Below, piece by piece: positions 17,050-64,000 of a DNA stretch of 64,000 bases. Made by a program: the position numbers and the translations under genes. The notes under the pieces are model-generated. The model searched no databases. It was not told where the DNA came from and was given only the letters and a program-made list of their open reading frames with translations. Source of the stretch: Pseudomonas piscis. Lineage in GTDB: Bacteria; Pseudomonadota; Gammaproteobacteria; Pseudomonadales; Pseudomonadaceae. The DNA lies in the NCBI RefSeq assembly GCF_009380155.1, contig NZ_WHUV01000001.1, positions 930,001-994,000 on the forward strand. The letters are read 5' to 3'. Within the stretch, counting starts at the first letter, position 1, and each line of letters starts with the position of its first letter.

Positions 17050-17793
17050 ATGCGCTTTATGCAAATACGCAACGTTTCTACCGTCTTAAGAGAGCTGCTG
17101 GATCGCGATGGAATCTCCCCCACGGAGCTTCACCGTCGCACCGGTGTGCCTCAATCCACCCTCTCGCGGATCCTCAGCGGGAAGATCGTCGATCCTTCGG
17201 ACAAGCACATTTCCAAGATCGCCGAGTATTTCCAGGTGAGCACCGACCAACTGCGCGGGCGCGTGGATATCGCCCCGGCCCGCAGTGCGGTGCGCGACGA
17301 GATTCATTCGGAACTCAAGGACATAAGCCTGTGGGACGACGATACCCCCGTCGATGACGACGAGGTGTCGGTTCCCTTTCTGCGCGAGGTTGAATTGGCT
17401 GCTGGATCAGGAAGATTCGTCATCGAGGAGAGCGAGCGCGCCAGCCTGCGCTTCGGCAAGCGCAGCCTGCGGCATAACGGCGTGCAGTTCGACCAGGCCA
17501 AGTGCGTCACGGTGCGCGGCAACAGCATGTTGCCGGTACTGCGTGACGGCGCCACGGTCGGGGTCAATGCCGGCAAGTGCGCCATTGGCGATATCGTCGA
17601 TGGCGACCTGTACGCCATCAATCACAATGGCCAGTTGCGGGTGAAGCAGTTGTACCGCCTGCCCACCGGTATCCGCCTGCGCAGCTTCAACCGCGATGAG
17701 CATCCTGACGAGGACTACAGCTTCCAGGACATCCAGGAAGAGCAGATCAGCATCCTCGGTCACGTCTTCTGGTGGGGCATGTACGCCCGCTAA
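17050..17793 (+). CDS. prtR: Self-cleaving CI/LexA-type repressor of the tailocin locus (PrtR-like)
   Basis: Likely holds the tailocin genes silent until DNA damage triggers RecA-aided self-cleavage. The 247-aa protein has an N-terminal XRE helix-turn-helix ([20 protein letters not shown], about residues 25-44). Its C-terminal S24 peptidase has a cleavage site Ala118-Gly119 in ELAAGSG, nucleophile Ser159 in GNSMLP and general base Lys199 in VKQLY. An alternative ATG is at 17059. It is divergent from mutS and precedes the late promoter. No prtN-type activator gene is seen between it and the tail genes. Confidence 0.9.
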
Positions 17794-17810
17794 CCCGCCA
17801 CCCGCAAACC

Positions 17811-17838
17811 AAGCCCGCCCCTGAGCGGGCTTTTTTTT
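17811..17838 (+). terminator. Terminator of the repressor gene
   Basis: AAGCCCGC and GCGGGCTT form an 8-bp stem around a 6-base loop, followed by eight T. It lies 17 bases after the repressor stop and separates it from the late promoter. Confidence 0.9.
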
Positions 17839-17904
17839 GTCCTGCAAAACCCCTTCATCCCCAATGCCTATGCGGCTTCCATGCATGGGAGCAAAAAACT
17901 CGCA

Positions 17905-17953
17905 TAAATAAATGCATTTACGCATTGACTGCATATGCATGAGTGCATAATAT
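17905..17953 (+). promoter_or_regulatory. Late tailocin promoter with overlapping operators
   Basis: A near-consensus sigma-70 promoter is visible: TTGACT at 17925-17930, a 17-base spacer and TAATAT at 17948-17953. The spacer contains the perfect palindrome TGCATATGCA (17930-17939). AATGC...GCATT arms lie just upstream at 17911-17926, and another TGCAT touches the -10. These TGCAT half-sites match those before the repressor gene, so repressor binding would block polymerase directly. Inferred from sequence; no start site is mapped. Confidence 0.7.
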
Positions 17954-18128
17954 TCGTCTCAAGCCGTTCGAAAACGGCTGCAACAACGCTCTTTAGTGGC
18001 ACAAGCAAAAGGCAGCGATGAACCGGCCTCGACGGTTCAGAGGGTTGGCAACTGACCCGGGTGTGCAGCGTAAAGCACCAGAAGCAGTTATCCGGCGGAC
18101 AGGGGTCGCGGTCGGAGGAACAATTTAA
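17954..18128 (+). promoter_or_regulatory. Structured untranslated leader of the late operon
   Basis: No convincing gene is present. Two perfect stem-loops lie here: AGCCGTT/AACGGCT at 17962-17979, right at the predicted 5' end, and GAACCG/CGGTTC at 18020-18038. Together with the downstream terminator at 18181 this gives the layout promoter, paired RNA hairpins, terminator, late genes. A role in antitermination is a hypothesis. Confidence 0.5.
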
Positions 18129-18180
18129 ATGGGTCCGTACCGCGCCAGTAGCGCCGAAAGACCAAGGATTGCATTACTGA

Positions 18181-18205
18181 AAAGCCCGGGCGACCGGGCT
18201 TTTTG
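18181..18205 (+). terminator. Strong early terminator in the late leader
   Basis: AAAGCCCGG and CCGGGCTTT form a 9-bp stem around GCGA, followed by T residues. It lies about 220 bases after the predicted start and 110 bases before the holin. All late genes are downstream, so it must be read through for expression. Confidence 0.8.
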
Positions 18206-18315: not shown

Positions 18316-18666
18316 ATGACAAACGAGCAACAAGCGTTGCTGGATATGCCGATCTGGATGGTCATCGTCCTGGCGCTGCTGGGCGGCGTGTCCGGTGAAA
18401 TGTGGCGTGCCGACAAGGAGGGCGCCCGTGGCTGGGCACTGCTGCGACGCCTGGTGCTGCGTTCTGGGGCCTGTGTGATCTGTGGTGTCTCGGCGATCAT
18501 GCTGCTGTATGCCGCCGGCGTCTCGATCTGGACCGCCTGCGCCTTCGGTTGCCTGACTGCCATGGCCGGCGCCGACGTCGCCATCGGCCTGTACGAGCGC
18601 TGGGCGGCCAAGCGCATCGGTGTGTGCGAGGTGCCCGAGCGTGACTCGCACTCCGATCGATCCTGA
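18316..18666 (+). CDS. Phage-type holin
   Basis: Small membrane protein expected to open the inner membrane so that endolysin reaches the cell wall and tailocins are released. The 116-aa product has hydrophobic segments at about residues 13-30, 50-75 and 80-95 and a charged, serine-rich C-terminal tail. A GGGAGA site precedes the ATG. As in R-pyocin loci the holin is the first structural-operon gene. Its apparent enzyme partner is 44 kb away at 63061. Confidence 0.8.
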   Translation: MTNEQQALLDMPIWMVIVLALLGGVSGEMWRADKEGARGWALLRRLVLRSGACVICGVSAIMLLYAAGVSIWTACAFGCLTAMAGADVAIGLYERWAAKRIGVCEVPERDSHSDRS

Positions 18667-18851: not shown

Positions 18852-19373
18852 ATGAGCGAACTGACGATATTGCACGACGCTATCGCCGCCACGATCAAGG
18901 CGGCGATGCCCGCTGTCCGAGCGGTGGAGGCGTTCCCCGAGACACCCGATGGCCTGGCCAGGCCGGCAATCGTCTTTGCCATCACCGCCATGGATCCAGC
19001 TGTTGATCCGGGCGATGGCCGTAGCTGTGTGAAGGCCACGTTCGAGGCCAGCATGCTGGTGGACGCCAACCTGCCAGGGGCAGCTTTGCAAGCGGTCGAA
19101 CTGGCGGCGCAAATGGCCGACCTGCTGCATTGCCAGCACTGGAACCTCGATTTCGTCGAGGGCACCAGCAGCGTGCGGGCCAAGCCTGCCGACGCCACCA
19201 GCGAGTCGTGGCGCAAGAAGGCCTGGACCGTGCAATGGCAGCAGTTGGTGTACCTCGGCCAGGAACAGTGGCCCTGGGCCAACCAGGGCCCGGGGTCGCT
19301 GCTGCTCGGTTTCGCTCCTGATACCGGGGCTGGCCACGAAGATGGCTACTTCTCCCCGGAGCAACTGGCATGA
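18852..19373 (+). CDS. Tail completion/terminator-like protein of the P2-like module
   Basis: The ATG at 18852 with AGGA upstream gives 173 aa starting [21 protein letters not shown] recognise it only by position and general resemblance to small Mu gp37/R-pyocin proteins that precede baseplate gene V; a tail-end role is inferred. It overlaps the next gene by 4 bases (ATGA). An open frame extends upstream to 18714, but that part has no ribosome site and an odd composition. Confidence 0.6.
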
Positions 19374-19960
19374 GCTTTGTCGCCGCGACTCACGATCGCA
19401 TGCTCGCCGGCCTGATCATTCCCTGCAGCGTGGTCGGGGTCGACCTGGCCGCCGCCATGGTGCGCGTGTCCGACGGTGCCGGCTGGACCAGCGCCTGGGT
19501 GCGCTGGCACAGCCAGGCCGCCGGCAAGGCCCGGCACTGGCGGGCGCCGAGCCTGGGCGAGCAGGGGGCCTTGATCAGTCCCAGCGGCGAGCCGGCCCAG
19601 GGCACCTTCGTCCCGGGGCTGTATGGCAACGCCGGGACCCAGCCGGACAACCGCGACCATGTCGAAGTCTGGCGCTTCGACGATGGCGGCTCGCTGGTCT
19701 ACGACTGGCAGGCCAAGAGCTACAGCATCAGCTTGCCCAGCGGCACGGTGACCATCCAGGTGGCCGGCAGCTCGGCGGTGATCACCGATAGCGCGATCAC
19801 GGCCAAGGCCGACACCATCACCCTGACCGGGCAAGTCACCTTGAACGGTGATGTGCAGATCAACGGCGCCAGCTTGCAGCACAACGGGGTGAACGTCGGT
19901 TCCACCCATACCCATCCGGGCGTGATGCCCGGCGGTGGCTCGACTGCCACGCCGCAATGA
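19370..19960 (+). CDS. Baseplate assembly protein V / central spike (P2 gpV-like)
   Basis: Forms the membrane-piercing spike under the tail tube. The 196-aa protein has an N-terminal OB-like segment and a C-terminal repetitive beta region ([26 protein letters not shown] type). It ends in a tip motif with His180 and His182 (THTHPG), which in P2-like spikes binds a metal ion. First in the P2 order V-W-J-I. Confidence 0.88.
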
Positions 19961-19966
19961 CCACCC

Positions 19967-19988
19967 GCCCGCTACCGCGGGCTTTTTT
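19967..19988 (+). terminator. Intra-operon terminator-like hairpin after gpV
   Basis: GCCCGC and GCGGGC pair around TACC, followed by six T. The next gene's ribosome site (GGAG) begins only 6 bases later. Confidence 0.7.
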
Positions 19989-20003
19989 ATGCCTGGAGCA
20001 ACC

Positions 20004-20189
20004 ATGAGCAGCAAGAAAAAGAACACCGGCCCGGTCGTGTTCCGCGACACGGTCTACACCTCCCGCATCCTGGTCCTGCCCGATGGGCGGATGCTGAACG
20101 TCGCCAATGGCCAGGTCGCGGTCGAGGCCAGCGACAACCTCGCCCGGGATTACCTGGGCCAGCACCCGGATCTGCAAGCGCAGGAGTGA
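20004..20189 (+). CDS. Small conserved tailocin protein, function unknown
   Basis: The 61-aa product starts MSSKKKNTGPVVFRDTVY and contains RILVLPDGRMLNV. I do not recognise a named family. It has the same size and a similar VLP-G-R core to the DUF2635-type protein at 47840 in the Mu-like module, so it may be an analogous small tail accessory. It lies between gpV and gpW with GGAG upstream; the next gene follows after 4 bases. Confidence 0.65.
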   Translation: MSSKKKNTGPVVFRDTVYTSRILVLPDGRMLNVANGQVAVEASDNLARDYLGQHPDLQAQE

Positions 20190-20193
20190 CGCG

Positions 20194-20520
20194 ATGATCG
20201 GAATGGATCGCCGCACCGGCCAGTCGTTGTCGGGCATCGCCCATGTGCGCCAGTCCATCGAGGACATCCTGAGCACGCCCCTGGGCAGCCGGCGCATGCG
20301 CCCGGAATACGGCAGCAACCTGCGGCGCTTCGTCGACCTGCCAGTGACCGGTGGCTGGAAAAGCGCGGTACAGGCCGAAGTCGCCCGGGCGCTGTTGCGC
20401 TGGGAGCCGCGGCTGAAGCTGGAGCAAGTGCAGGTGGTTTCGGTGGTGGCGGGCCAGATCACCTTTCAACTGACGGGCCAATACCTGGGCAATAGTGCGA
20501 TTTTGGAGGTGACGGCATGA
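20194..20520 (+). CDS. Baseplate wedge protein W (gp25-like lysozyme fold)
   Basis: Wedge component that initiates sheath polymerisation in contractile tails. The 108-aa protein shows the family pattern SIEDILSTPLGSRRMRPEYGSNL, with the conserved EPR-like motif WEPRLKLEQV. The start at 20194 follows the stop of the previous gene. The end overlaps gpJ by 4 bases. Corresponds to P2 gpW and R-pyocin PA0617. Confidence 0.92.
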   Translation: MIGMDRRTGQSLSGIAHVRQSIEDILSTPLGSRRMRPEYGSNLRRFVDLPVTGGWKSAVQAEVARALLRWEPRLKLEQVQVVSVVAGQITFQLTGQYLGNSAILEVTA

Positions 20521-21398
20521 GCACCCTGGATTTATCGGCGCTACCGGCGCCACAGGTGCTGGAAGCCCTGGATTTCGAAGCGCTGTACCAAGACAAGCTG
20601 GCGACCTTCCGCCAGCACATGGGCGGTAACTGGAGCGCCGCCCTGGAGAGCGACCCGGTGGTCAAGCTGCTGGAACTGGCGGCCTACCGCGACCTGCAAT
20701 TGCGCGCCCGGGTCAACGATGCGGCCAAGGCCTTGCTGTTGGCCCACGCCCAGGGCAGCGACCTCGACCAGCTGGCGGCCAACGTCAAGCTCAAGCGCCT
20801 GGTCATCCGCCCGGCCGACCCGCAAGCGCTGCCGCCCACGCCGGAGGTCAAGGAGACCGACGACGCCCTGCGCGAACGCATCCAGCTGGCCTACGAAGGC
20901 CTGACCACCGCCGGGCCGCGCAACAGCTACATCCTGCATGCCCGCAACGCTTCGGCCCTGGTGGCCGATGCCGCGGCCCAGAGCCCATCGCCGGCCTGCG
21001 TCACCGTCACCGTGCTGGGGCTGGAGGGCGATGGCAGTGTCGCCCCCGAACTACTGGCGACGGTGGCCACCGCCCTCAATGACGAGGACGTGCGGCCCCT
21101 GGGCGATCGGGTCACGGTACAGAGCGCCCAGGTGCTGCCCTACCGCATCGATGCGGTGCTGCACATGAAAGGCCCCGGGCCGGAAAGCGATGCCGCGTTG
21201 GCCGAGGCCCGGCGTAAGCTGGCGGCCTGGATCAATCCGCGCCGGCGCCTCGGGCTGGAAGTGCCGCGCTCGGCCATCGATGCCCAGTTGCACGTCGCCG
21301 GGGTCTCCCGGGTCGACCTGGCCAACTGGCAGGACATCGCCCCGACCCCGGCCCAGGCAGCCTACTGCACCGGCTACAGCATCACGCTGGGAGGCTGA
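20517..21398 (+). CDS. Baseplate protein J (P2 gpJ-like)
   Basis: Large wedge protein of the contractile baseplate. At 293 aa it has the family's typical length; the segment TPEVKETDDALRERIQLAYEGLTTAGPRNSYILHARN is the signature central part (cited here only as residues ~102-138). It starts in an ATGA overlap with gpW and is followed at one base by gpI. Corresponds to R-pyocin PA0618. Confidence 0.92.
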   Translation: MSTLDLSALPAPQVLEALDFEALYQDKLATFRQHMGGNWSAALESDPVVKLLELAAYRDLQLRARVNDAAKALLLAHAQGSDLDQLAANVKLKRLVIRPADPQALPPTPEVKETDDALRERIQLAYEGLTTAGPRNSYILHARNASALVADAAAQSPSPACVTVTVLGLEGDGSVAPELLATVATALNDEDVRPLGDRVTVQSAQVLPYRIDAVLHMKGPGPESDAALAEARRKLAAWINPRRRLGLEVPRSAIDAQLHVAGVSRVDLANWQDIAPTPAQAAYCTGYSITLGG

Positions 21399-21399
21399 C

Positions 21400-22005
21400 A
21401 TGAGCAGCCTGCTGCCGATCAACGCCACCCCGCTGGAGCGCGCCCTGGCCGCCGCCAGCACCGGCGACACCGCCGTCGTCCTGCGCACCTTGTACAACCC
21501 CGACACCTGCCCGGCGCACCTGCTCTCGCAACTGGCCTGGGCCTGGTCCGTGGATCGCTGGGACCCGACCTGGTCCGAGACGGTCAAGCGCAACGCCATC
21601 AGGGCCTCGTTCTTCATCCATGCCCGCAAAGGCACCATCGGTGCGCTGCGCCGGGTGGTGGAACCTCTGGGCTACCTGATCGAAGTGGTCGAGTGGTGGC
21701 AGATGGTGCCCCAGGGCGAACCGGGCACCTTCGCCCTGAAAGTCGGTGTGATGCAGACCGGCATTTCCGAAGCGACCTACCAGGAGCTGACCCAACTGAT
21801 CGACGACGCCAAGCCGGTCAGCCGCCATATGAGTGGCTTGGCCATCAGCCTGGAAACCGCCGGGACTATCGGTTACGGCGTCTTCCTGGAGCAGGGCGAA
21901 GAGCTCGACGTGTATCCCCCGGCATCTCGCGATATCGAAGTGATCGGCCGTTTGGCGCCGGTCGTGTGCATTGACGAAATAGACACCCTGGATGTGTACC
22001 CATGA
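21400..22005 (+). CDS. Tail protein I (P2 gpI-like)
   Basis: Baseplate component that links wedge and fibre. The ATG at 21400 gives 201 aa starting MSSLLPINATPLERAL; the frame is open further upstream, but that part overlaps gpJ in another frame. The conserved core LAWAWSVDRWDPTWSE and IRASFFIHARKGTIGALRR is typical of tail protein I. The stop overlaps the fibre start (ATGA). Confidence 0.92.
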   Translation: MSSLLPINATPLERALAAASTGDTAVVLRTLYNPDTCPAHLLSQLAWAWSVDRWDPTWSETVKRNAIRASFFIHARKGTIGALRRVVEPLGYLIEVVEWWQMVPQGEPGTFALKVGVMQTGISEATYQELTQLIDDAKPVSRHMSGLAISLETAGTIGYGVFLEQGEELDVYPPASRDIEVIGRLAPVVCIDEIDTLDVYP

Positions 22006-23975
22006 TCGATTCCAACAGTCAGTTCTTCGCCACCCTCACCTCGGTGGGCGAGGCGAAGCAGGCCAACGCCACCGCCCTGGGCATTCCCTGGACCTTCAAG
22101 GAGATGGCGGTGGGGGATGCCAATGGCAGCGACCCCGTACCGAACAAGACGCAGACCAAGCTGATCAACGAATGGCGTCGGGCGCCGGTCAACCAAGTGC
22201 GAACCGACCCCGCCAACCCGAATGTCATCATCACCGAGCAGGTGATCCCCCCTGATGTCGGTGGGCATTGGCTTCGTGAAATCGGCCTGTTCGATGCCGA
22301 CGGTGACCTGGTGGCGGTGGCCAACTGTGCCCCTACCTTCAAACCTTTGCTGGCCCAGGGCACCGGCAAGACCCAGATCATCCGCATGAACTTCATCGTG
22401 TCGAACACCGCGCAGATCGTGCTCAAGATCGATCCGTCGGTGGTGTTGGCCACCCGGCAGTATGTGGATGACTCGCTGGCCACAGCGCTGCCAGCGAACA
22501 AAGCAGCAGGCACTTATCGGCAGGTCACCATCGATAAACGCGGTGTCGTACTCACCGGGACCAACCCGACGACAGTGGCCGGTTATGGCATCACCGATGC
22601 GTTCACCAAGCCGGAAACTACGGCGGCAATCGAACAGGCGGTGGCTGCCTTGGTTGCGTCCGCTCCTGGTGCTCTCGACACTCTGAAGGAGCTTGCCGAC
22701 GCGCTGGGTAATGACCCGAACTTTGCTACCACCATGACCAAAACCCTTGCGGCGAAAGCCAACAAAGCGACGACTTTAGGGGGCTACGGAATCGTAGATG
22801 GAGCGACCAAATCGGACCTTAATAGCGCAGTCAGCGGGTTACTGCCTAAAGCTGGTGGCATAGTCTCGGGTCCTATTTATCTGGCAAATGGAACGGGGGA
22901 CTCGCCAGAAATAGCGTGGAAGACGCCGGAACTTGAAGTCTATGCCGATGTTATAAATAGAACTCTTCGGTTCTTTTCTTACTTCAACGGGCAAACCGAG
23001 TTTCCGTTGGTGATTGATGTTCCAGGAAAGTCTGCATCATTTTTCGGTAATACGGCCTGGCACTCAGGCAACTTCAATCCGCAGGAAAAAGCGAATAAGT
23101 CCACAACTCTAGCGGGTTATGGAATCACTGATGCCTACTCCAAGGGTGGGACCTATTCTCGAGATGAAGTCAACGAACTATTCGAGGGGCTGTCCGCGTT
23201 GCCGGTGGGAGCTATGGTGCCTTTTCCCAAGGGCACGGCAGCTCCGGGTTTCCTGGAAGCCGACGGCAGCGTGCAGAGTATTGCTACTTTCCCCGATTTG
23301 GCGGCGTACCTAGGGGACACTTTCAACAAGGGTGACGAGGGCGTCGGGAGCTTCCGATTACCTGATTCTCGCGGTGAGTTTTTTCGAGGCTGGGACCATG
23401 GGCGCGGAGTGGATGTGGGCCGGGCATTGGGAACTTATCAAGCAGATGATTTCAAGTCTCACACCCATCTAATCGGTAATCAGAACACCTATGGTAGCGG
23501 CAGCTCGGCAGGTCCACTTCATAACGGTGGAAAGTCTGGAGACTTGTCGCAACCCACTGGCGCCGTTGGGGGAGTTGAAACCCGTCCGCGCAACCTGGCA
23601 GTAATGTGGTGCATCAAGGCCTGGAACGCCCCCGTCAACCAAGGAACGATTGATATAGCAGCGCTAGCGGCACAGGTTGTCGGGTTCTCGGCTCGTGCGA
23701 CAGCCCTAGAAGAGCGACCACGGGGCCTTGGTGATGGTCAGGCTTGGCAGAGCGTAACCGCGGTCCGAGTCTCAGGCACTGTCTACACGAACACCACCGG
23801 GCGGCCAATCTTTGTGCAAGTGTCGTTTACGACTGGCGGCGTTTATGTCGTTGTCGATGGTGTGAACTTGACGGCATCTGCATATCACGCGGCTTTTATC
23901 GTGCCTGCGGGATCGACCTACAAAGTCACATATGGCAGTCCGACAAACCTGACTTGGGTGGAGCTTCGTACATGA
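22002..23975 (+). CDS. Tail fibre (P2 gpH-like, collar-domain type)
   Basis: Receptor-binding fibre of the P2-like tailocin, 657 aa. The N-terminal ~150 residues form the baseplate-attachment domain. Three GYGI-(T/V)-D repeats follow (near residues 198, 262 and 370), then a tail-collar domain (LPVGAMVPFPKGTAAPGFLEADG, about residues 405-425) and a divergent C-terminus. Composition becomes clearly less GC-rich from about 22800, as expected for a recombining receptor-binding end. Coupled to its assembly protein by an ATGA overlap. Confidence 0.92.
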   Translation: MIDSNSQFFATLTSVGEAKQANATALGIPWTFKEMAVGDANGSDPVPNKTQTKLINEWRRAPVNQVRTDPANPNVIITEQVIPPDVGGHWLREIGLFDADGDLVAVANCAPTFKPLLAQGTGKTQIIRMNFIVSNTAQIVLKIDPSVVLATRQYVDDSLATALPANKAAGTYRQVTIDKRGVVLTGTNPTTVAGYGITDAFTKPETTAAIEQAVAALVASAPGALDTLKELADALGNDPNFATTMTKTLAAKANKATTLGGYGIVDGATKSDLNSAVSGLLPKAGGIVSGPIYLANGTGDSPEIAWKTPELEVYADVINRTLRFFSYFNGQTEFPLVIDVPGKSASFFGNTAWHSGNFNPQEKANKSTTLAGYGITDAYSKGGTYSRDEVNELFEGLSALPVGAMVPFPKGTAAPGFLEADGSVQSIATFPDLAAYLGDTFNKGDEGVGSFRLPDSRGEFFRGWDHGRGVDVGRALGTYQADDFKSHTHLIGNQNTYGSGSSAGPLHNGGKSGDLSQPTGAVGGVETRPRNLAVMWCIKAWNAPVNQGTIDIAALAAQVVGFSARATALEERPRGLGDGQAWQSVTAVRVSGTVYTNTTGRPIFVQVSFTTGGVYVVVDGVNLTASAYHAAFIVPAGSTYKVTYGSPTNLTWVELRT

Positions 23976-24352
23976 GATATTTCAACAACCCCAAAACAAG
24001 CGAAGTGCATGCCTACGATGATGATGTCCCTGGGCACTTCATAGCCAGCTATCTGCTACCAATGTCCGATGAGGCGGTTCGATCGTACATTGCCAGTGCA
24101 ACAGCGCCTCTACTCGACCCAGCGACCGAGGAGCGTAATTGGCGTGATGTCGAGTTAATCTCTTTGCTCTGGTTACGCGAGCGGCACCGTGATCAGATTG
24201 AGATAGAAGCACCGACCACACTTACAGTCGACCAATTCAAGGAACTGCTTAAGCATATCCAGGCCCTGCGCAATTGGCCGCAATCCCCCGATTTTCCGCA
24301 GATCGAGCACCGTCCGGTGGCGCCGCCCTGGCTCGCCGAGCAAACACGCTAA
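23972..24352 (+). CDS. Tail fibre assembly chaperone
   Basis: The 126-aa product beginning MRYFNNPKTSEVHAYDDD helps fold or attach the preceding fibre. Its C-terminal half (LRERHRDQIE, QFKELLKHIQALRNWP) matches the same pattern in four assembly proteins of the distant Mu-like module. The open frame upstream of 23972 overlaps the fibre gene and is ignored. A strong terminator-like hairpin starts at its stop codon. Confidence 0.85.
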   Translation: MRYFNNPKTSEVHAYDDDVPGHFIASYLLPMSDEAVRSYIASATAPLLDPATEERNWRDVELISLLWLRERHRDQIEIEAPTTLTVDQFKELLKHIQALRNWPQSPDFPQIEHRPVAPPWLAEQTR

Positions 24353-24376
24353 ACGCCCCGCCATCCGGGGCGTTTT
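24351..24376 (+). terminator. First of two tandem terminators before the sheath gene
   Basis: AAACGCCCCG and CGGGGCGTTT form a perfect 10-bp stem with a 5-base loop and T tail. It overlaps the stop codon of the fibre assembly gene. Confidence 0.8.
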
Positions 24377-24410
24377 CATATCCGCGCCTTAGCGCACCGT
24401 CTTCTCTTCC

Positions 24411-24434
24411 AGCCCCGCCACCCGGGGCTTTTTT
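24411..24434 (+). terminator. Second tandem terminator before the sheath gene
   Basis: AGCCCCG and CGGGGCT pair around CCACC, followed by six T. It ends 17 bases before the sheath ATG. No clear sigma-70 promoter is seen between the two hairpins and the sheath gene. Confidence 0.75.
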
Positions 24435-24451
24435 ATGTCTGGAGCTTATCC

Positions 24452-25618: not shown

Positions 25619-25630
25619 GGAGCCGCAGCA

Positions 25631-26140: not shown

Positions 26141-26152
26141 GGAACTTCCTCG

Positions 26153-26570: not shown

Positions 26571-26593
26571 GCCTGTCACCACGGGGGCGGCAA

Positions 26594-29200: not shown

Positions 29201-29209
29201 GGAGACGCC

Positions 29210-30236: not shown

Positions 30237-30294
30237 ACCCTGGTCTTGCTTCTGCAAATTCCTTTACTGATCGGCACCCAGTGCGAGGCGTTTT

Positions 30295-49563: not shown

Positions 49564-49581
49564 ATTGAAGGGAGAAACACC

Positions 49582-53539: not shown

Positions 53540-53542
53540 GCC

Positions 53543-54583: not shown

Positions 54584-54666
54584 GCCGCCCCCGGCGGCGT
54601 ACAGGCCACCGGGGCCCGCCATTGCCTGCCCGATGCGTCGGGCCCGGGCCAGCCAAGGAATCCACC

Positions 54667-56604: not shown

Positions 56605-57191
56605 GAAGCGCGGCCCAGTACCAGGAACAACTGCGCAGCTTGCTGCCCAGCGGCCCGGCCTGGGACCCGGAGCAAGTGCCTGAACTGGAGCAGGTGCTCG
56701 AAGGCATCGCCCAGGAACTGGCACGCCTGGATGCCCGGGCCGCCGACCTGCTCAACGAGATGGACCCGGCCGGGGTCAGCGAACTGGTGCCGGACTGGGA
56801 GCGGGTGATGGAGCTGCCCGACCCCTGCCTGGGGGCCACGCCGCTGTTCGACGACCGCCGCCTGGCGGTGCGCCGGCGCTTGCTGGCGGTGGGTAGCCAG
56901 GCGCTGAGCTACTACGTGGAAATCGCCCGCAGCCAGGGTTACCCCAACGCCACCATTACCGAGCTGGAGGCTCCGCGCATGGGCCGCGCCCGCTTCGGCT
57001 CGGCGCACTTCGGCACCTGGCAGGCGCAGTTCATGTGGACGCTCAACACCGGCGGCCGGCTGCTGCTCGGGCGGCGCTACGGCGCCAGCTACTGGGGCGA
57101 ACGCTTCGGCATGAACCCCGGATCGGCCCTGGAGTGCCTGATCCACCGCAGTGCCCCGGCCCATACCCGGGTGCATATCAATTACGACTAG
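56592..57191 (+). CDS. Tail protein (Mu gp48-like, DUF2313 type)
   Basis: 199 aa from the ATG at 56592, which has GGAGG 6 bases upstream; an ATG at 56601 in the stop overlap is also possible. Family features include YQEQLRSLLPSGPAWDPE near residue 10 and the wedge-end core ELVPDWERVMELPDPCLG. Links baseplate and fibre network. Followed after 10 bases by the first of four fibre genes. Confidence 0.88.
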   Translation: MAGMRSAAQYQEQLRSLLPSGPAWDPEQVPELEQVLEGIAQELARLDARAADLLNEMDPAGVSELVPDWERVMELPDPCLGATPLFDDRRLAVRRRLLAVGSQALSYYVEIARSQGYPNATITELEAPRMGRARFGSAHFGTWQAQFMWTLNTGGRLLLGRRYGASYWGERFGMNPGSALECLIHRSAPAHTRVHINYD

Positions 57192-57201: not shown

Positions 57202-58140
57202 ATGGACTTTCCCAGAAGTGTGCCCAGCGCGGGACTGGTCAACGGCCGGTTCGCCGACGAAAACCCGCTGACCGGGACGCCCGGCTCGTTGATCACCGCC
57301 GCCTGGGGCAATGGCGTGACCGAGGAGTTGCTCAATGTGATTCGTGCGGCGGGCATCACGCCAGCCGAAAGCGAATCGGACCAGTTGCTCAGGGCCTTGA
57401 AGAGCGTACTGGCCCAGGATGCCCAGCCCCTGGCCGCGTTGGCCTTTCCCACCGTGGCCACGGCCGACGGGCGTATCGCGGTGACACCGGGTACGGCTGC
57501 GGCGGGCGGCACGGTCATGGTACCCGGCGGGGTGCTGGTCAGCCTGGGCGAAGAAGCCCTGGTGGGCATCACCGCCCGTCCGCGGGCGCTGTACAGCGTG
57601 CCCTGGATGTCCCCCGACCTGGAGATCAACAGCACCTACTTCTTGCGCATGCAGGTCATGGGTGGGGCGTTGGGTTGCTACCTGCAAAAGGGCACCGACA
57701 ACGATGCCGTTCCCCCTGCGCTCAAGGGCGCCGCCGGCGCCTCCGGAGGTGGTTTCGATTCCACCTGCATCGACATGCTCCTGGCCAAGGTGGTCACCTC
57801 CGGTGCCGGGACCCTGCCCAAGCTGACCTTGCTGGCCAACAAGGCGCGGCTGGAAGCCGTGGGGGGCTGGTCCGGAGCTAGCGGCAGTTACTCGCTGCCC
57901 CTGAACTGGGCCAGGAAACCCCGGGCCTATATTTCCGGGCTGTTGGACTACGACGGTAACGTCAAGACCGACTACGGCGTAGTCGCGGAGGACACCGGAG
58001 GGGATCTTGCGTCGGTGAAATCAATCATGCCCGCTGGGGGCTTTAGCGATCGCTATATGGGGCGTGTGCTGATTCTGTCCTGGGCACAGAACGTTAGCGC
58101 CGCCGGGCTGATCAACGCCCGTGTCAGATGGGAGGCCTAG
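57202..58140 (+). CDS. Tail fibre, Mu-like module, cassette 1
   Basis: 312 aa. The N-terminal ~60 residues (MDFPRSVPSAGLVNGRFADE... to LNVIRAAGI) are shared with the fibres at 58555, 60132 and 61657 and probably anchor all four to the baseplate. The remaining 250 residues are unique (VVTSGAGTLPKLTLLANKAR region) and likely bind the receptor. Followed by its own assembly gene. Confidence 0.85.
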   Translation: MDFPRSVPSAGLVNGRFADENPLTGTPGSLITAAWGNGVTEELLNVIRAAGITPAESESDQLLRALKSVLAQDAQPLAALAFPTVATADGRIAVTPGTAAAGGTVMVPGGVLVSLGEEALVGITARPRALYSVPWMSPDLEINSTYFLRMQVMGGALGCYLQKGTDNDAVPPALKGAAGASGGGFDSTCIDMLLAKVVTSGAGTLPKLTLLANKARLEAVGGWSGASGSYSLPLNWARKPRAYISGLLDYDGNVKTDYGVVAEDTGGDLASVKSIMPAGGFSDRYMGRVLILSWAQNVSAAGLINARVRWEA

Positions 58141-58142
58141 GA

Positions 58143-58541
58143 ATGAAAGCCATTATCGAACAGGGCGTCGTGACGGCCCTGGTGAGCGGCGATATCGACG
58201 GTGGCGTCGAGTTGCCGCCAGGCCTTGCGGTGACCGTCGGCTGGCGCTACCAGGATGAGCTGTTCAGCCCGGCTCCGGACAGCCTTGGCGCCGAACCACA
58301 GCAGCCGCTTTTGCAAGCCGAGCGCGACTGGCGCCGCACAACCCTGGCCAGGACCGACTGGCTGGTGGCCCGCCACCGCGATGAACTCGACGCCGATGCC
58401 CCGGCGACCCTGGGGCGCAAGCAGTTCGCCAAGCTGCTGGCTTACCGCCAGGCCCTGCGGGACTGGCCGGCCTCGGCCGGCGAGTCGCAAACCCAAGCGC
58501 GACCCGAGCCGCCCAAGTGGCTGGCGAAGTTGCCCCACTGA
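58143..58541 (+). CDS. Tail fibre assembly protein, cassette 1
   Basis: 132 aa from the ATG at 58143 (MKAIIEQGVVTALVSGD). The C-terminal half has the pattern DWLVARHRDELDAD...LLAYRQALRDWP, shared with the other four fibre assembly proteins in this window. N-terminal half is cassette-specific, as expected for a chaperone matched to its fibre tip. Confidence 0.82.
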   Translation: MKAIIEQGVVTALVSGDIDGGVELPPGLAVTVGWRYQDELFSPAPDSLGAEPQQPLLQAERDWRRTTLARTDWLVARHRDELDADAPATLGRKQFAKLLAYRQALRDWPASAGESQTQARPEPPKWLAKLPH

Positions 58542-58554
58542 CAGGACATGAACC

Positions 58555-59475
58555 ATGGATTACCCGAAAAGCGTACCCAGTGCGGGCCTGGTCAATGGCC
58601 GCTTCGTCGATGAAAACCCGCTGACCGGCTCGCCGGGATCGCTGATTCCCGCCGACTGGGGCAATGGCGTCACCCAGGAGATCCTCAACGTCATCAAGGC
58701 GGCCGGCCTGGTGCCGGATGAACGCAAGACTGACCAGCTGACCCAAGCCATTGGCGAGTTGCTCGACTTCAAGCGCTTGAAGAATACCCCCACCACCCTG
58801 GGCGGCTACGGCATCAGCGATGCTGGCGGGCGGCTGTTGACGGTGAAGCAGTTTGAAACCGTGGGCATCACCCTGTACCGACCCGACCCCAGGGCCAAGC
58901 GCATTCGCGTACGCCTGGTGGGCGCCGGTGGTTCCGGCGGCGGCTGCCAGCCGGTGCCCGCAGGTAGTTTCACCGTGGGTGGCGGCGGTGGTTCTGGCGC
59001 CTATGCCGAGGGCTTGTTCGATGTGACCTCACAGATGCTGGCGGGGGTGCCCGTAACCCTGGGTGCCGGTGGCGAGGCGCGCGCGGTGGTGGGGGCCAGT
59101 GGCGGTAGCGCCTCTTTCGGCAGCTACATGAGCGCCTCTGGGGGTATGGGTGGCCAGGTGATCACCTTTGTGTCGGATTCCCCCGGATTCGTCCAGGGGG
59201 GAGCAGGAGGTCAAGTGGTGACGGGCGGCAACCTTTCCAGCGCCCGTGGCATACAGGGCGGTTATGCCATGAACAATCCGAACTGGGGAACGTTGGCGGG
59301 CTGCGGTGCAGCCAGTCCGTTCGACGGCGGGACTGCCGCTACCGGACTGAACAACATAGGCCTCCCCGGGGTACGTGGTTCGGGAGGCGGCGGCAGTTGT
59401 TCCTTCCTAGCCACTGCCGCCTGCTTGAGCGGCGCCGGTGGCAATGGCTTTTGTGAAATCTGGGAGTACGCGTGA
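58555..59475 (+). CDS. Tail fibre with glycine-rich tip, cassette 2
   Basis: 306 aa. Conserved N-terminus MDYPKSVPSAGLVNGRF, a TLGGYGISDAGG fibre repeat near residue 80, then a C-terminal ~180 residues that are extremely rich in Gly (GAGGSGGGC, GGGGGSGAYAEG, GGGGSCSF). This resembles polyglycine-type phage adhesin tips. Overlaps its assembly gene by one base. Confidence 0.85.
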   Translation: MDYPKSVPSAGLVNGRFVDENPLTGSPGSLIPADWGNGVTQEILNVIKAAGLVPDERKTDQLTQAIGELLDFKRLKNTPTTLGGYGISDAGGRLLTVKQFETVGITLYRPDPRAKRIRVRLVGAGGSGGGCQPVPAGSFTVGGGGGSGAYAEGLFDVTSQMLAGVPVTLGAGGEARAVVGASGGSASFGSYMSASGGMGGQVITFVSDSPGFVQGGAGGQVVTGGNLSSARGIQGGYAMNNPNWGTLAGCGAASPFDGGTAATGLNNIGLPGVRGSGGGGSCSFLATAACLSGAGGNGFCEIWEYA

Positions 59476-59993
59476 TGGCCCGTTATGTCCGTGTGGAAGA
59501 GGGCGTGGTGGTCGAGTTGATCGAGACCGGCGACTACGCCATCGCTGATTTGTTCGCCCCGCAGTTCCTCGCATCCATCCACCCTGCGCCCTCGGGGCGC
59601 GAAGTGCGGATGGGTATGGAGTTGCAGGCCAGCCCAGTGCCGGCTTCGGCGACTGAGGCAAGTGAGCCGGTGGCTGCGCCGCTGGCGACACCGCCAGGCG
59701 ACAAGCTGGAAACCATGGCCCGGGCCCATGTGGCCGAGGTGGTGGCCCAGGGGGCGGAGGCCCGGGAGCGGCAATGGCGCAGCGACAGCCTGGAAGCCAG
59801 CCAGTGGCTGGCGGCCCGGCACCGCGATGAACAGGACCTGGGCCGTGGCACCAGCCTTAGCGCGCAGCAGTACCTGGAGTTGCTGGAGTACCGCCAGGCC
59901 TTGCGCGAATGGCCCGGTTGCCAGGGGTTTCCGGCCGTTGCGGCGCGCCCGCAAGCCCCCCAATGGTTGCCAGGCAACCTGCCTGGCCAATGA
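59475..59993 (+). CDS. Tail fibre assembly protein, cassette 2
   Basis: 172 aa from the ATG at 59475 (MARYVRVEEGVVVELIETG); a GTG one codon earlier is possible. The C-terminal block WLAARHRDEQDLG...LLEYRQALREWP is the shared family pattern. Longer N-terminal part than its relatives. Confidence 0.82.
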   Translation: MARYVRVEEGVVVELIETGDYAIADLFAPQFLASIHPAPSGREVRMGMELQASPVPASATEASEPVAAPLATPPGDKLETMARAHVAEVVAQGAEARERQWRSDSLEASQWLAARHRDEQDLGRGTSLSAQQYLELLEYRQALREWPGCQGFPAVAARPQAPQWLPGNLPGQ

Positions 59994-60131
59994 CCGGCGC
60001 GAATCCTTCGAGCCGTTTTCAATCATCTCAAGACGCCTGCCCGCCACCCGGGTGCCGACGTTGCCTGGCCGCTGGCCGAGCCGCGTCGCACCCGGGGCGT
60101 AGCGGTGGGCGTCCTTATCAGGACATCACCT

Positions 60132-61061
60132 GTGGACTATCCAAAAAGCGTGCCCAGCTCCGGGCTGGTCAATGGCCGGTTCATCGATGAAAACCCGGTT
60201 GCCGGCACACCGGGGTCGCTGATCCCGGCCAGCTGGGGCAACGCGATCACCGATGAAATCCTCAATGTGCTGTCGGCCGCGGGCATCGCTCCGCTGGAAG
60301 GCAGCAACAACCAGCTGATCACCGCGCTGCGCAGCGGCGCGCTGTTCCAGACCAAACCGCAGTTCGACAACGGCAAGTCGGCAGCCACCACCGAGTTCGT
60401 GCAACGCGCCCTGGGCTCGCTGCGCGATGTGGCGGTCTACAACGCGGCCACCACCCTGACCGCCGCCGATATCGGTCGTTGCGTGCGCTTCGGTTATGGC
60501 GGCTACAGCATCACCTTGCCCGCGGCCGGACCGGCCATCGCCAATGGCAGCGCCCTGTACCTGATGAACACCGGTACCGGGGCCATGACCGTGGTGGTCA
60601 ATGGTGGCGACAAGATCGCCGTCGGCAACGGCTACCTGAGTAGCTTCGAGTTCGGCGTGGGCGATTCGGTGGTGCTGGTCAAGCATCTCAATGGCGAGTG
60701 GACGGCGCTGCTGGGCAGCGTACCGATGCGCTACATGCCGGGTTTTGCGTGCTTGATGGGAGGTACTGGCTACCAGAAATTGCCCAGTGGCTTGATCGTG
60801 CAGTGGATCGCCGGTGGCTCCGACAGTAACGGCAACATGATCGTGTCACTGCCTATCCAGTTTCCCAACGCGGTGCTGGGCGGCATTGCCAACGAACTCA
60901 ATCCCCTGGGCTGGGGTGCCACAGGCCGGACCACGGTCTGGGCCTTCGACCTGCCCAGCAGCAACAAGGCGGTGGTGGTGGCCAAGGCCCGGGACATCAT
61001 CGGCAACAACGTACCGGTGCCCAATCCCATTGGCGGCCGCATCCTGGTTTGGGGGTATTGA
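60132..61061 (+). CDS. Tail fibre, Mu-like module, cassette 3
   Basis: 309 aa from a GTG at 60132 that aligns with the conserved DYPKSVPSSGLVNGRF start; an upstream ATG at 60105 would add nine unmatched residues. Middle motif SAATTEFVQRALGS is shared with cassette 4. The C-terminal part ends in a tail-collar-like YQKLPSGLIVQWIAGG and ...GGRILVWGY. Probably another receptor-binding variant. The 138 bases before it hold nothing recognised. Confidence 0.82.
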   Translation: MDYPKSVPSSGLVNGRFIDENPVAGTPGSLIPASWGNAITDEILNVLSAAGIAPLEGSNNQLITALRSGALFQTKPQFDNGKSAATTEFVQRALGSLRDVAVYNAATTLTAADIGRCVRFGYGGYSITLPAAGPAIANGSALYLMNTGTGAMTVVVNGGDKIAVGNGYLSSFEFGVGDSVVLVKHLNGEWTALLGSVPMRYMPGFACLMGGTGYQKLPSGLIVQWIAGGSDSNGNMIVSLPIQFPNAVLGGIANELNPLGWGATGRTTVWAFDLPSSNKAVVVAKARDIIGNNVPVPNPIGGRILVWGY

Positions 61062-61553
61062 ATGAGCAAGTATTTTCTAGCGCAGACCCTGGGTTTCCTG
61101 TGCTCCGACGAGCATGAACCGGCGCTGCTGGAGCAGGCGGTGAAGATCACCGACCTGGAGTACCAGAAGCTGTTCGAGGGCCAAGCCCAGGGCCGGGCCA
61201 TCGCTGCCGACGAGTTGGGCCGGCCGATCCTGGTGGAACGTCCCGGGCCTTCGGCCGAGACCTTGGCGCTGATCGAGCGGGCCTGGCGCGACGGCCAATT
61301 GCAGGAGACCGACGGCGTGGTGGCGCGCCATCGCGATGAGCTGGACGCCGGTGGCGCCACCAGCTTGTCGGCGGCTCAATTCCAGAGCCTGCAGGATTAT
61401 CGGCGACTGTTGCGCCAATGGCCGGCCCAGGACGACTTCCCCGCTAGCGACAAGCGCCCCGTACAAGTGATGCCGGCCCCGGCAGCGGCTCCCGCGGTGA
61501 AGCGTACCCGGGCCAGAAAGCCCGCGCAGCCGGCACCGGATGCAGCGTCCTGA
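61062..61553 (+). CDS. Tail fibre assembly protein, cassette 3
   Basis: 163 aa, starting directly after the fibre stop (MSKYFLAQTLGFLCSDEH). Shared C-terminal pattern VVARHRDELDAGG...LQDYRRLLRQWP. It ends in a basic Lys/Arg/Pro/Ala-rich tail (KRTRARKPAQPAPD). Confidence 0.82.
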   Translation: MSKYFLAQTLGFLCSDEHEPALLEQAVKITDLEYQKLFEGQAQGRAIAADELGRPILVERPGPSAETLALIERAWRDGQLQETDGVVARHRDELDAGGATSLSAAQFQSLQDYRRLLRQWPAQDDFPASDKRPVQVMPAPAAAPAVKRTRARKPAQPAPDAAS

Positions 61554-61593
61554 TGCGGCACTGATATTCATCTTCAGCGTGAGCTGTCCTGAC

Positions 61594-61621
61594 CGAGCAC
61601 CGCCATAAATGGCGGTGCTCG
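61594..61621. repeat. Perfect 13-bp inverted repeat between cassettes 3 and 4
   Basis: CGAGCACCGCCAT (61594-61606) and ATGGCGGTGCTCG (61609-61621) are separated by two bases. No T tract follows, so it is not a typical terminator. It may be an mRNA stabiliser or a recombination-associated palindrome between fibre cassettes. Confidence 0.7.
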
Positions 61622-61656
61622 TCAGTCGAAAAGCCAGAGATGGCAGGAGTTAAACA

Positions 61657-62550
61657 ATGGATTATCCAAGGAGCGTGCCCAGCGTTGGCTTGGTCAACGG
61701 CAGGTTCGTGGATGAGGATGCCGTGGCGGGAACCCCCGGGTCGCTGATTTCCGCGAGCTGGGGCAATTCGGTGACCGAAGAATTGCTGAACGTTATCCGG
61801 GCCTCGGGTACCACACCGGTCGAAGGGGTGAACAACCAGCTGCTGACGGCCTTGCGTGGCAAGGGTGCTTTCGATACGGCGCCGAAGTTCGATGCGAGCA
61901 ACAAAGTCGCGACCACCGAGTTCGTGCAAAGGGCCCTGGGCAGTTACTCGGGGCAAGCCAACTATGATCGCGACGTGGCCCTGGCCCCTGGCGATGTCGG
62001 CAAGCTGATTGCCCTGACGGCCCCGGTGACCGTGACCTTGCCCGAGTGGGCGGCGGTGGCACCCGGTGGCCTGATCACGGTGTTTGGCTGGGGCGGGGCC
62101 TTTACCGTGCAGGGCCGGGCTGGTGACAACCTTTCGCAGATCTCCGGTGCCAGCAGTGGCCCGATGACCTTCACCGCAGGTACCCGGGCGGTATTCCGGC
62201 GCAACCTGTATGACCGTGGCTGGAGCCTGGACGATGGCGATGCCGCGCTGAAGTATTCGCCCATGTTCAGCGCTTCGTATGGCGCTTCGGGTTTTCAACG
62301 ACATCCGAGCGGCATCATCGATCAGTGGGGAATTTGCACCAGCAATGAATCCGGTGACGCCTACGTCACCTTTCCGGTTGCCTTTCCAAATGGCGTGCGC
62401 TCCATTGTGGCCAACCATGCCGGCACCGGTGCGGCCATGGTGATTGCAGTATGGAACAAGGTAACCAACCAAGGTTGCCAGCTGAGGGTTTTCAACCACT
62501 TGGGGAACAGCTCGCAGTGGCTCATCTATTACCGAGTAGTGGGGTACTGA
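61657..62550 (+). CDS. Tail fibre, Mu-like module, cassette 4
   Basis: 297 aa, starting MDYPRSVPSVGLVNGRFVDE. Shares the anchor and the ATTEFVQRALGSY middle with cassette 3; the C-terminal part (FQRHPSGIIDQWGICTSNES to WLIYYRVVGY) has the same collar-like plan but a different sequence. Preceded by GGCAGGAG. Followed immediately by its assembly gene. Confidence 0.85.
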   Translation: MDYPRSVPSVGLVNGRFVDEDAVAGTPGSLISASWGNSVTEELLNVIRASGTTPVEGVNNQLLTALRGKGAFDTAPKFDASNKVATTEFVQRALGSYSGQANYDRDVALAPGDVGKLIALTAPVTVTLPEWAAVAPGGLITVFGWGGAFTVQGRAGDNLSQISGASSGPMTFTAGTRAVFRRNLYDRGWSLDDGDAALKYSPMFSASYGASGFQRHPSGIIDQWGICTSNESGDAYVTFPVAFPNGVRSIVANHAGTGAAMVIAVWNKVTNQGCQLRVFNHLGNSSQWLIYYRVVGY

Positions 62551-63048
62551 ATGAACAACTCGACGATCTTTTTCAGCCCAAGCACCTGTGGTGCCTACTT
62601 GCCGGCGATCCATGGCAGCGATATGCCGGACGATGTGGTGGAGGTGCCCGAGCGCTACTGGCATTCGCTGTTGAGCGAGCTGGCCCTGAGCCCGAAGAAA
62701 ATGGCCGCCAGGGACGATGGTTATCCGGTCCTGGTCGACTTACCTGCCCCCGATGCGCAGTGGCTACAGGAGAACGAACGTAGCTGGCGCGACGCGCAGT
62801 TGCTGCAAACCGATGGGGTGGTGGCCCGGCATCGCGACCAACTGGAGGCCGGGGTAGAAACGACTCTCTCGGCCGCCGAGTTTGCCAGCTTGCAGCAGTA
62901 TCGCCAGCAGTTGCGCGACTGGCCTGTCCAGCAGGCTTTTCCGCAGCAGGCGCTGCGCCCGCAACTTGCGGTGGCCGAATCGATTTCGGCCGAGTCCAGG
63001 AGCTCATCCAACCCACTGTTCGCGCTGTTTCGTGGGAAGAACAAATGA
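62551..63048 (+). CDS. Tail fibre assembly protein, cassette 4
   Basis: 165 aa, starting MNNSTIFFSPSTCGAYLPA. C-terminal pattern VVARHRDQLEAG...LQQYRQQLRDWP as in the other copies, then a Ser-rich end. Last gene of the fibre array, 12 bases before the endolysin. Confidence 0.82.
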   Translation: MNNSTIFFSPSTCGAYLPAIHGSDMPDDVVEVPERYWHSLLSELALSPKKMAARDDGYPVLVDLPAPDAQWLQENERSWRDAQLLQTDGVVARHRDQLEAGVETTLSAAEFASLQQYRQQLRDWPVQQAFPQQALRPQLAVAESISAESRSSSNPLFALFRGKNK

Positions 63049-63060
63049 AAGGAATCCTCT

Positions 63061-63624
63061 ATGTCGATCACTGAAGAGCAGTTGCTCAAGATCATGCCGA
63101 ACGCCCGCCGCCAAGCGGGCGTTTTCGTATCTCCGCTCAACGCTGCCATGGCTCGTCGGCAGATCGATACGCCCAAGCGCCAGGCGGCGTTCCTGGCGCA
63201 GATCGGCCATGAATCGGGGCAGTTGCAGTACGTGCGCGAGCTGGGCAACGACCAGTACCTGAGCAAGTACGACACCGGCACCCTGGCCGCGCGGCTGGGC
63301 AATACCCCCGAGGCCGATGGCGACGGCCAGCGCTATCGCGGGCGTGGGCTGATCCAGGTCACGGGGCGCAGCAACTATCGCCAGTGCAGCCTCGGCCTGT
63401 TCGGCGACGAGCGCCTGCTGGAGTTGCCCGAGCTGCTGGAGCAGGCGCAATGGGCCGCCGAATCCGCAGCCTGGTTCTGGGAGCGGGCGGGGCTCAATGC
63501 CCTGGCCGATCGTGACGAATTCAACGCCATCACCCGGCGCATCAATGGCGGCCTGAACGGCCTGGAAGATCGCCGCCAGCTCTGGGGCCGGGCGCGCTCG
63601 GTACTGGGCCTGCCGGCAGCCTGA
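63061..63624 (+). CDS. Endolysin, family 19 chitinase-like muramidase
   Basis: Cell-wall hydrolase that lyses the producer to release tailocins. 187 aa without a signal peptide, so it depends on a holin. GH19 features: FLAQIGHESGQ with catalytic Glu51, a second acid near Glu60, and RYRGRGLIQVTGRSNY. In R-pyocin loci this enzyme stands next to the P2-like module; here it is at the far right, after the Mu-like module. Confidence 0.92.
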   Translation: MSITEEQLLKIMPNARRQAGVFVSPLNAAMARRQIDTPKRQAAFLAQIGHESGQLQYVRELGNDQYLSKYDTGTLAARLGNTPEADGDGQRYRGRGLIQVTGRSNYRQCSLGLFGDERLLELPELLEQAQWAAESAAWFWERAGLNALADRDEFNAITRRINGGLNGLEDRRQLWGRARSVLGLPAA

Positions 63625-63654
63625 GGCCGCCGGCCTGCGCCAAGGAGAATCAGC

Positions 63655-64000
63655 ATGAACATTCGCAGTTGGCTGGCCGTGGCGGTCATGGCCGGGCTGC
63701 TCTATGCCCTGGGCTACATCACCGGGGTCGGCAGCGAGCGTAGCCGCAACCACGTCCTGGACGAGGCGCGCCTGCGCCAGTCCTTCGAACAGGGCCGGGC
63801 CCTGGGTACGGTCAAGGAGAAGGTGGTGGTCGAGTACGTCGACCGCATCGTCAAGGTCTACCAGGCGGGCGCCACTATTACCAAGGAGGTCCCTATCTAT
63901 GTTTCCCAAGCCGCTGATAGCGCTTGCGTGGTGCCTGCCGGTTTTGTCCGGGTGCACGACGCCGGTGCCCACAACCTGCCCGTGGCCGGAGGCCCCCGCG
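63655..64000 (+). CDS. Rz-like inner-membrane spanin (cut by window edge)
   Basis: The frame is open from the ATG at 63655 to the end of the window (115 codons seen). It starts MNIRSWLAVAVMAGLLYALG with one membrane segment (about residues 6-27), then a charged helical periplasmic part (KEKVVVEYVDRIVKVYQ). This plan and its position after the endolysin fit an Rz-type spanin that fuses inner and outer membranes at lysis. GGAG lies about 10 bases upstream. The 3' end is outside the window. Confidence 0.8.
   Translation, partial: MNIRSWLAVAVMAGLLYALGYITGVGSERSRNHVLDEARLRQSFEQGRALGTVKEKVVVEYVDRIVKVYQAGATITKEVPIYVSQAADSACVVPAGFVRVHDAGAHNLPVAGGPR

Follow-up and report, generated by a model that had tools for sequence, protein, structure and literature searches.

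Four tailocin gene sets in one mutS-cinA locus of Pseudomonas piscis, headed by a conserved structured leader RNA that may act as an antiterminator

We analyzed a 64,000-nt stretch of the Pseudomonas piscis genome (NCBI RefSeq assembly GCF_009380155.1; contig NZ_WHUV01000001.1, positions 930,001 to 994,000 of the forward strand), referred to here as the window, which falls on contig C11 (genome size, 6.93 Mb). The locus under study lies between mutS and cinA/recA, as in the mutS-cinA type of R/F tailocin loci, and all of its array genes from 18 to 77 kb are on the forward strand. It is composed of four tail machines (three R-type and one F-type) behind a head that consists of a prtR-like repressor gene, a promoter-like site, and a conserved structured leader RNA, a candidate processive antiterminator. 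The features are listed below (positions are counted from the first nucleotide of the window).

14286..16865, reverse strand: mutS, left border of the locus (Pfam MutS domains I to V; best E value, 9.6e-85)
17050..17793, forward strand: prtR-like repressor gene (helix-turn-helix domain PF01381; Peptidase_S24, PF00717, 3.9e-18; phrog_4, 1.4e-48)
17925..17953, forward strand: promoter-like site TTGACT-N17-TAATAT amid ATGCA/TGCAT half-sites (sigma70-like scan)
18011..18116 (106 nt), forward strand: structured leader RNA with four helices, candidate processive antiterminator (model R1, 126.3 bits)
18180..18205, forward strand: terminator-like hairpin between leader and holin gene (sequence alignment)
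18316..18666, forward strand: holin, superfamily III (PF16085, 1.3e-56)
18852..31338, forward strand: module A, P2-like R tailocin (V, W, J, I, H, G, FI, FII, E, T, U, D; PHROG/Pfam)
31426..32577, forward strand: GH18 enzyme, second candidate lytic enzyme, between modules A and F (PF00704, 7.1e-28)
32912..47022, forward strand: module F, lambda-like flexible tailocin (PHROG/Pfam)
47268..57191, forward strand: module C, Mu/SfV-like R tailocin (terminator, sheath, tube, 41, tape measure protein, 43 to 48; PHROG/Pfam)
57202..63048, forward strand: four fiber/chaperone pairs of module C in tandem, with a common 213-nt fiber anchor
63061..63624, forward strand: GH19-like endolysin (phrog_181, 4.1e-74; PF00182, 3.6e-6)
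63655..64170 (passes the window end at 64000), forward strand: candidate Rz-like spanin (phrog_4952, "signal peptide motif," 7.3e-57)
64189-76067 (beyond the window), forward strand: module D, second P2-like R machine (PHROG/Pfam)

The initial annotation of the window, made from the sequence alone, had described complete P2-like, lambda-like, and Mu-like tail gene sets on one strand, and PHROG and Pfam scans bore out three complete-looking sets (P2-like, lambda-like, and Mu/SfV-like) on the forward strand. Its placement of the end of the array at about 64 kb did not hold: the window cuts the locus, and a fourth machine and then cinA follow in the next 12 kb. This fourth machine, module D (L-like, V, W, J, I, H, fiber, sheath, tube, E, tape measure, U, and D), begins 18 bp after the end of the Rz-like gene (64170), leaving little room for a promoter upstream of it. 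The tape-measure frames comprise 886, about 465, and 654 residues in the three machines of the window and 833 in module D. Between the end of module D (76067) and cinA (start, 77671; PF02464, 1e-53) lie a Mu Com-like zinc ribbon (PF10122, 8.5e-20) and small proteins; recA follows cinA, according to our reading of the sequence. In L004, a Mu Com-like zinc ribbon (PF10122) is found at 16124-16300, near the 3' end. No capsid, packaging, or integrase genes were detected among the locus proteins scanned with PHROG and Pfam. Two proteins carry head-like PHROG labels (25631, "head closure"; 47268, "portal"), and Pfam instead identifies them as tube FII and a tail terminator.

The array encodes eight or so receptor-binding proteins by our count. 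The four copies of the module C fiber anchor (57189-61856) all point in one direction at a spacing of 1353 to 1577 bp, no inverted repeats were found around them, and the alternative fibers would compete for a single baseplate site. Module F contains two fiber genes (35872 and 38116) and a chaperone gene between lambda-like M and L (35872-39839), an insertion that is flanked by near-identical terminator-like hairpins at 37977 and 39996. The same genome carries a second lambda-like tail set on another contig (G000:C13:80000-140000; L035-L037), whose M and K proteins are 97% identical to those of module F; a PrtR-like gene (55%) accompanies it, and the leader RNA is conserved there only over about the first 30 nt.

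As initially annotated, the holin opens the array and the endolysin (63061) lies 44 kb downstream. The annotation counted a single holin and a single endolysin, and the former count stands (18316); the GH18 enzyme, however, makes two candidate lytic enzymes. It is 76% identical to its counterparts at the same position in genome G061 and in Pseudomonas sp. PH1b, its N terminus appears signal-like to us, and its catalytic stretch NLDFE is one that we take to be shared with peptidoglycan-active GH18 enzymes. We read the 63655 gene as a probable Rz-like spanin on the basis of its position and a nested lipoprotein-like frame from 63899; Pfam matched nothing in the Rz-like protein or in the nested Rz1-like frame. 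Past the window end, no second holin or endolysin was found among the open reading frames scanned up to cinA, and module D lies outside the holin-endolysin bracket. The split lysis layout, which had been singled out for comparison, is present but ordinary: it was common to all 16 loci that we fetched from leader to cinA and has been published for Pf-5. In prophage 01 of Pf-5 and Q8r1-96, the holin gene precedes and the endolysin gene follows the tail genes, the cloned holin and endolysin were lytic in Escherichia coli (the endolysin with chloroform), and a chitinase gene is described in Pf-5 (Mavrodi et al. 2009, PMC2647930). Two endolysins are counted in CHA0 (Vacheron et al. 2021, PMC7815802).

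The head of the array bore out the annotation of one repressor and one obvious late promoter, i.e., an S24-type PrtR and one forward sigma70-like match. The PrtR-like repressor is 82 to 98% identical across tailocin loci, and the promoter-like site is conserved in 19 aligned prtR-holin regions; the surrounding half-sites are likely the PrtR operator. From 16.5 to 79 kb, our simple scanner, which is blind to other promoter types, gave no sigma70-like match on the forward strand other than the site at 17925-17953. Since the module after the prtR-leader-holin head varies among genomes (A, D, F, or C) and the head is constant, the promoter seems to reside in the head region rather than in the modules. 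The leader RNA starts 58 nt past the end of the predicted -10 element. The terminator-like hairpin at 18180 was present in 8 of the 19 aligned loci, absent from 5 (G036, G033, G062, L056, and L057), and unreached in 6. Past the RNA, a second short conserved stretch (18117-18165; CCGTACCGCGCCAGTAGCGCCGAA) can form a small hairpin and is also found in the phages L156 and L193. The D-type loci of six genomes (G238, G099, G048, G119, G197, and G140) have approximately 110 extra nt with repeated motifs between the promoter and the leader RNA.

Multi-tailocin clusters near mutS in fluorescens-group Pseudomonas, which the initial annotation cited as known, are described by Vacheron et al. (2021, PMC7815802), who report mutS-cinA as a tailocin hotspot in the P. 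protegens and P. chlororaphis subgroups, with four tailocin types (three R and one F) in varied combinations. The P. piscis locus differs from those described in having four machines in one locus and one P2-like set after the spanin; the text consulted names no four-set strain, and a three-set strain may be among those covered. We searched 249 genomes of the genus using the J protein of module F and the sheaths of modules C, A, and D as queries. All four machines occurred together in one genome, that of P. piscis. Pairs of modules were detected in at least 29 genomes for D-C and, by hand, in at least 4 for D-F, 3 for A-C, and 2 for F-C; all of these counts are lower bounds because they cover only scored candidates above set E values. 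Four machines in one mutS-cinA locus are thus a new maximum among the genomes searched, not a new kind of locus.

The order prtR, leader, holin, one to four modules, GH19 enzyme, and cinA was common to the 16 loci fetched from leader to cinA, which were picked for their module combinations and not at random. The GH19 enzyme was also found in five of six further loci with cinA. The closest layout is that of Pseudomonas sp. PH1b, in which mutS is followed by prtR-holin-A-GH18-F-C-lysin-Rz-cinA, the same three-machine order, with module D being extra in P. piscis. Elsewhere, module D lies directly behind the holin, whereas in P. piscis it follows the spanin. The simplest history would be an A-GH18-C layout (as in G061) into which F was inserted before C (as in PH1b) and D before cinA. 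We considered genome G036 as a second three-machine array and rejected it because its P2-like set precedes prtR and comes with separate holin and GH19 homologues. Such extra sets, adjacent to the tailocin locus and equipped in the same way, were observed in G036, G033, and G153 (L005-L014 and L131-L133). Genome G130 (L038 and L039) has two tandem P2-like A-type sets 20 kb apart, the second of which is behind prtR and the leader.

At the left border, mutS, which was present whole or in part within the fetched stretch in 8 of the 16 loci (P. piscis included), is divergent from prtR and separated from it by 184 bp. A forward-strand frame at 14271-16868 (865 codons) was considered as mutS and rejected because it had no Pfam match and mutS itself is on the reverse strand; the tblastn conservation of this antisense frame merely mirrors mutS. 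The small RNA rsmZ (Rfam PrrB_RsmZ) lies at 13603-13732, as is usual for the region.

Alignment of the prtR-holin gaps of 19 loci revealed a nearly invariant, noncoding stretch, overlooked in the initial annotation, which is a structured RNA (18011-18116). In the model set (33 distinct sequences), 98.9% of 924 cells paired, changes on both sides were present in 12 of 28 pairs, and there were 49 double-changed cells versus 10.3 after shuffling (0 of 500 shuffles as high); with the partners slid, pairing was at most 51.0%. Because the structure was derived from these 33 sequences, we tested 22 separate sequences, which were found with model R1 and were 63 to 98% like the nearest model sequence, and whose alignment was fitted to the model and so leans toward it. 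In this held-out set, 97.3% of 601 cells paired, both-side changes were present in 19 of 28 pairs, and there were 123 double-changed cells versus 34.0 after shuffling (0 of 500 as high); pairing with slid partners was at most 48.5%. One helix pair (54-62) failed in 9 of 21 held-out cells. Two decayed copies (L272 and L277) were excluded from the alignment, and an earlier count (23 sequences; 97.3% of 629 cells; 126 versus 34.0) was redone, as L278 was identical to a model sequence. Rfam 15 yielded no family match over the leader, the weak matches starting before 17930 and stopping short of the RNA. A small protein encoded by the leader (frame ATG AAC CGG CCT) was considered and rejected, because codon five is a stop (TAA or TGA) in many copies, and in others a 2-nt insertion or deletion changes the frame. 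In PseuP_224, a 126-bp hypothetical gene is annotated across the leader.

Model R1 matched 118 of the 199 genomes sampled from the genus, 19 of 198 genomes sampled across the family (4 of 19 genera), and 1 of 274 genomes sampled across the class (i.e., the P. piscis genome itself); these large scans used stricter filters, with which weak matches are lost. An exact 36-nt leader pattern was present in at least 120 IMG/VR stretches. Among the 80 matches listed, 64 had a holin match and 6 more had a PrtR match of at least 80%, so these 70 look like tailocin loci. Eight others (L148, L156, L163, L165, L176, L189, L193, and L214) are phage-like by our reading, and two are short and undecided. In addition, BLAST searches with the leader retrieved 11 phage records and 27 plasmid records.

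In all three contexts (i.e., tailocin arrays, phage early operons, and conjugation [type IV secretion system] operons), the same RNA is at the head, beside a repressor- or XRE/LexA/Cro-type gene. In Orimi01, the leader is beside a repressor-like gene, and ERF recombination genes follow. In Medea1, cI is 1.2 kb away with two genes between, and ERF and YqaJ are downstream; cI immediately precedes the leader in PseuP_224 (followed by mainly hypothetical genes and a DNA methylase) and is separated from it by one gene in Aurca01 (followed by hypothetical genes). On plasmids, the leader follows an XRE gene or lies beside LexA and Cro genes, and the genes after it encode a lytic transglycosylase, VirB3, VirB4, and VirB5, an order that continues to VirB10 in L258 and is repeated up to VirB9 in L279 and L280; in L278, SLT transglycosylase and T2SSE ATPase genes follow the RNA. 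Other copies are split by insertion sequences or decayed. When up to 4 kb of sequence following the RNA was compared between one tailocin context, two plasmid-type contexts, and seven phage contexts, no protein match emerged. At the DNA level, the tailocin and phage sequences had only short stretches in common, largely as reverse-strand matches, and the best of these fell within the initial 100 nt. Two genomes (G165 and G137) have kept prtR, leader, holin, and cinA with no tail-gene match, and their RNAs are decayed (67.4 and 39.3 bits) compared with those of the mapped tailocin loci (117.6 to 128.8 bits).

Terminator hairpins were counted under a strict rule that demanded a compact stem and 6 T in 8. 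In the 16 tailocin arrays (420 kb), 64 were in the sense and 9 in the antisense orientation; three loci (G130, L056, and L057) were outside this count, their cinA being beyond the fetched stretch. The P. piscis array has 8 sense hairpins and no antisense hairpins, seven of them intergenic and the eighth at the module C tube gene start, which is uncertain. Phage early operons showed 14 sense versus 5 antisense hairpins (14 loci; 91 kb), and a housekeeping stretch showed 1 versus 0.

Several RNA antiterminators at the heads of long operons are known, in HK022, bacilli, and pLS20-type plasmids. The put RNA of HK022 acts in cis after early phage promoters and enables polymerase to read through terminators with no dedicated protein (PMC9378689); as described there, it comprises about 70 nt and two stem-loops, versus about 106 nt and four helices for the leader. 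Model R1 had no match in HK022 (26000-36000) at E values up to 1; with its four helices over 106 positions, the leader appears to stand outside the put family by descent. The conAn (pLS20) and EAR (exopolysaccharide operons) RNAs are likewise at the head of long operons, and the conAn operon has many internal terminators (PMC8955417). Both are Gram-positive systems, and conAn also requires a protein, whereas we found no shared protein after leaders of the P. piscis type. In the DNA damage lysis program of P. aeruginosa, antitermination is carried out by AlpA (PMC12796719), which is a protein, in contrast to the leader. We did not find an RNA of this shape in Pseudomonas in the open-access antitermination literature searched (titles and abstract openings), which is weak evidence of novelty. 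Closer to hand, the prophage 01 record (EU982300) has prtR and then the leader (95.7% over 99% of the query; unannotated), as in P. piscis, but contains one SfV-like machine only; a Com gene is annotated there directly after the leader. We give about an even chance to the leader being a put-like cis antiterminator. Whether this would be the first RNA antiterminator of Pseudomonas, one family that acts in cis without a dedicated protein across tailocin, phage early, and conjugation operons, appears to us equally balanced.

We favor, with some confidence, the explanation that the locus is a domesticated four-machine array run as one SOS-switched unit with an antiterminator leader. PrtR would keep the one promoter shut until RecA-triggered self-cleavage of PrtR opens it. 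Polymerase would then copy the 106-nt leader, whose four-helix fold would most likely bind the elongating polymerase in cis; the leader-bound polymerase would resist the hairpin terminators scattered in the block, such that one promoter could read 60 kb. The four machines would be assembled together and released by one holin, the GH19 endolysin (perhaps with the GH18 enzyme), and one Rz/Rz1-like pair. Joint induction and release, which the initial annotation had proposed for three particles, fits both the anatomy (one repressor, promoter-like site, strand, and holin) and the swapping of modules.

A number of observations weigh against this explanation. The fold energy of the window copy was not unusual relative to shuffles (z scores, -1.05 and -0.71), and as it gave no signal, the case for the RNA rests on covariation. 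The conjugation operons showed no terminator bias (1 sense versus 3 antisense hairpins; 4 loci, 37 kb), and hairpins also leaned toward the sense strand (7 versus 4) in a 40-kb stretch of prophage that lacks a full leader. Given these differences among contexts, the terminator support holds for tailocins, weakly for phages, and not for plasmids. A loose scan showed no bias (48 sense versus 64 antisense, mostly intragenic); the count of 64 versus 9 is exploratory because the strict rule was fixed after that result, and it does not represent 73 independent events because the 16 arrays share ancestry. The RNA is also retained in shortened loci (L141, L187, and L208), and a copy with no obvious long operon after it (L286) is well kept (119.3 bits); genome G099 has an intact copy that seems to be an orphan. 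No GH19 match was obtained in L059, a locus that includes cinA.

The leader RNA might instead be real but stabilize the message, control translation of the first gene, or attenuate at 18180, with the modules being expressed by read-through or from weak internal promoters. The lack of terminator bias in conjugation operons, the promoter types that sigma70-like scans miss, and the hairpin that follows the RNA in 8 of the 13 loci whose aligned sequence extends far enough speak for such a role, yet that hairpin is missing in the five loci named above. The first genes after the RNA are unrelated among the three operon types, which disfavors a first-gene translation switch, and the RNA heads long operons beside a repressor-type gene; we regard this alternative as possible but rather unlikely. 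Equally doubtful, in our view, is an ordinary hotspot, in which independent prophage remnants accumulated between mutS and cinA, are partly functional, and may not be coinduced. That mutS-cinA is a known hotspot, that three genomes (G036, G033, and G153) carry extra P2-like sets with their own lysis homologues upstream of prtR, and that module D lies outside the lysis bracket all speak for it. However, the tail genes all share a strand, the position behind the common head is occupied interchangeably by module A, D, F, or C, and there is neither a capsid or packaging set among the scanned proteins nor an own holin found for any module. Finally, the fourth machine or its order could have been misjoined in a draft genome of 20 contigs, in which module D is at a position (after the spanin) unseen in the other mapped loci. 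The 2.1-Mb length of contig C11, the intact frames at the 18-bp Rz-D junction, and the independently determined prtR-hol-A-GH18-F-C-lys-Rz-cinA order of PH1b make an assembly error very improbable.

The array represents an extreme in the stacking of tailocins behind a common switch and with a common set of lysis genes. If true, our explanation would account for how transcription from one promoter under repressor control can cross the internal terminators of a 60-kb, four-machine block, while stray transcripts starting inside the block are stopped. The leader itself is a compact, testable element of approximately 106 nt at the head of long operons, either mobile or domesticated. Should it prove to be an antiterminator, it would show how such very long operons are read and are otherwise kept silent, would offer a means of switching tailocins on or off, and would join the control of phages, bacteriocins, and conjugation in one mechanism.

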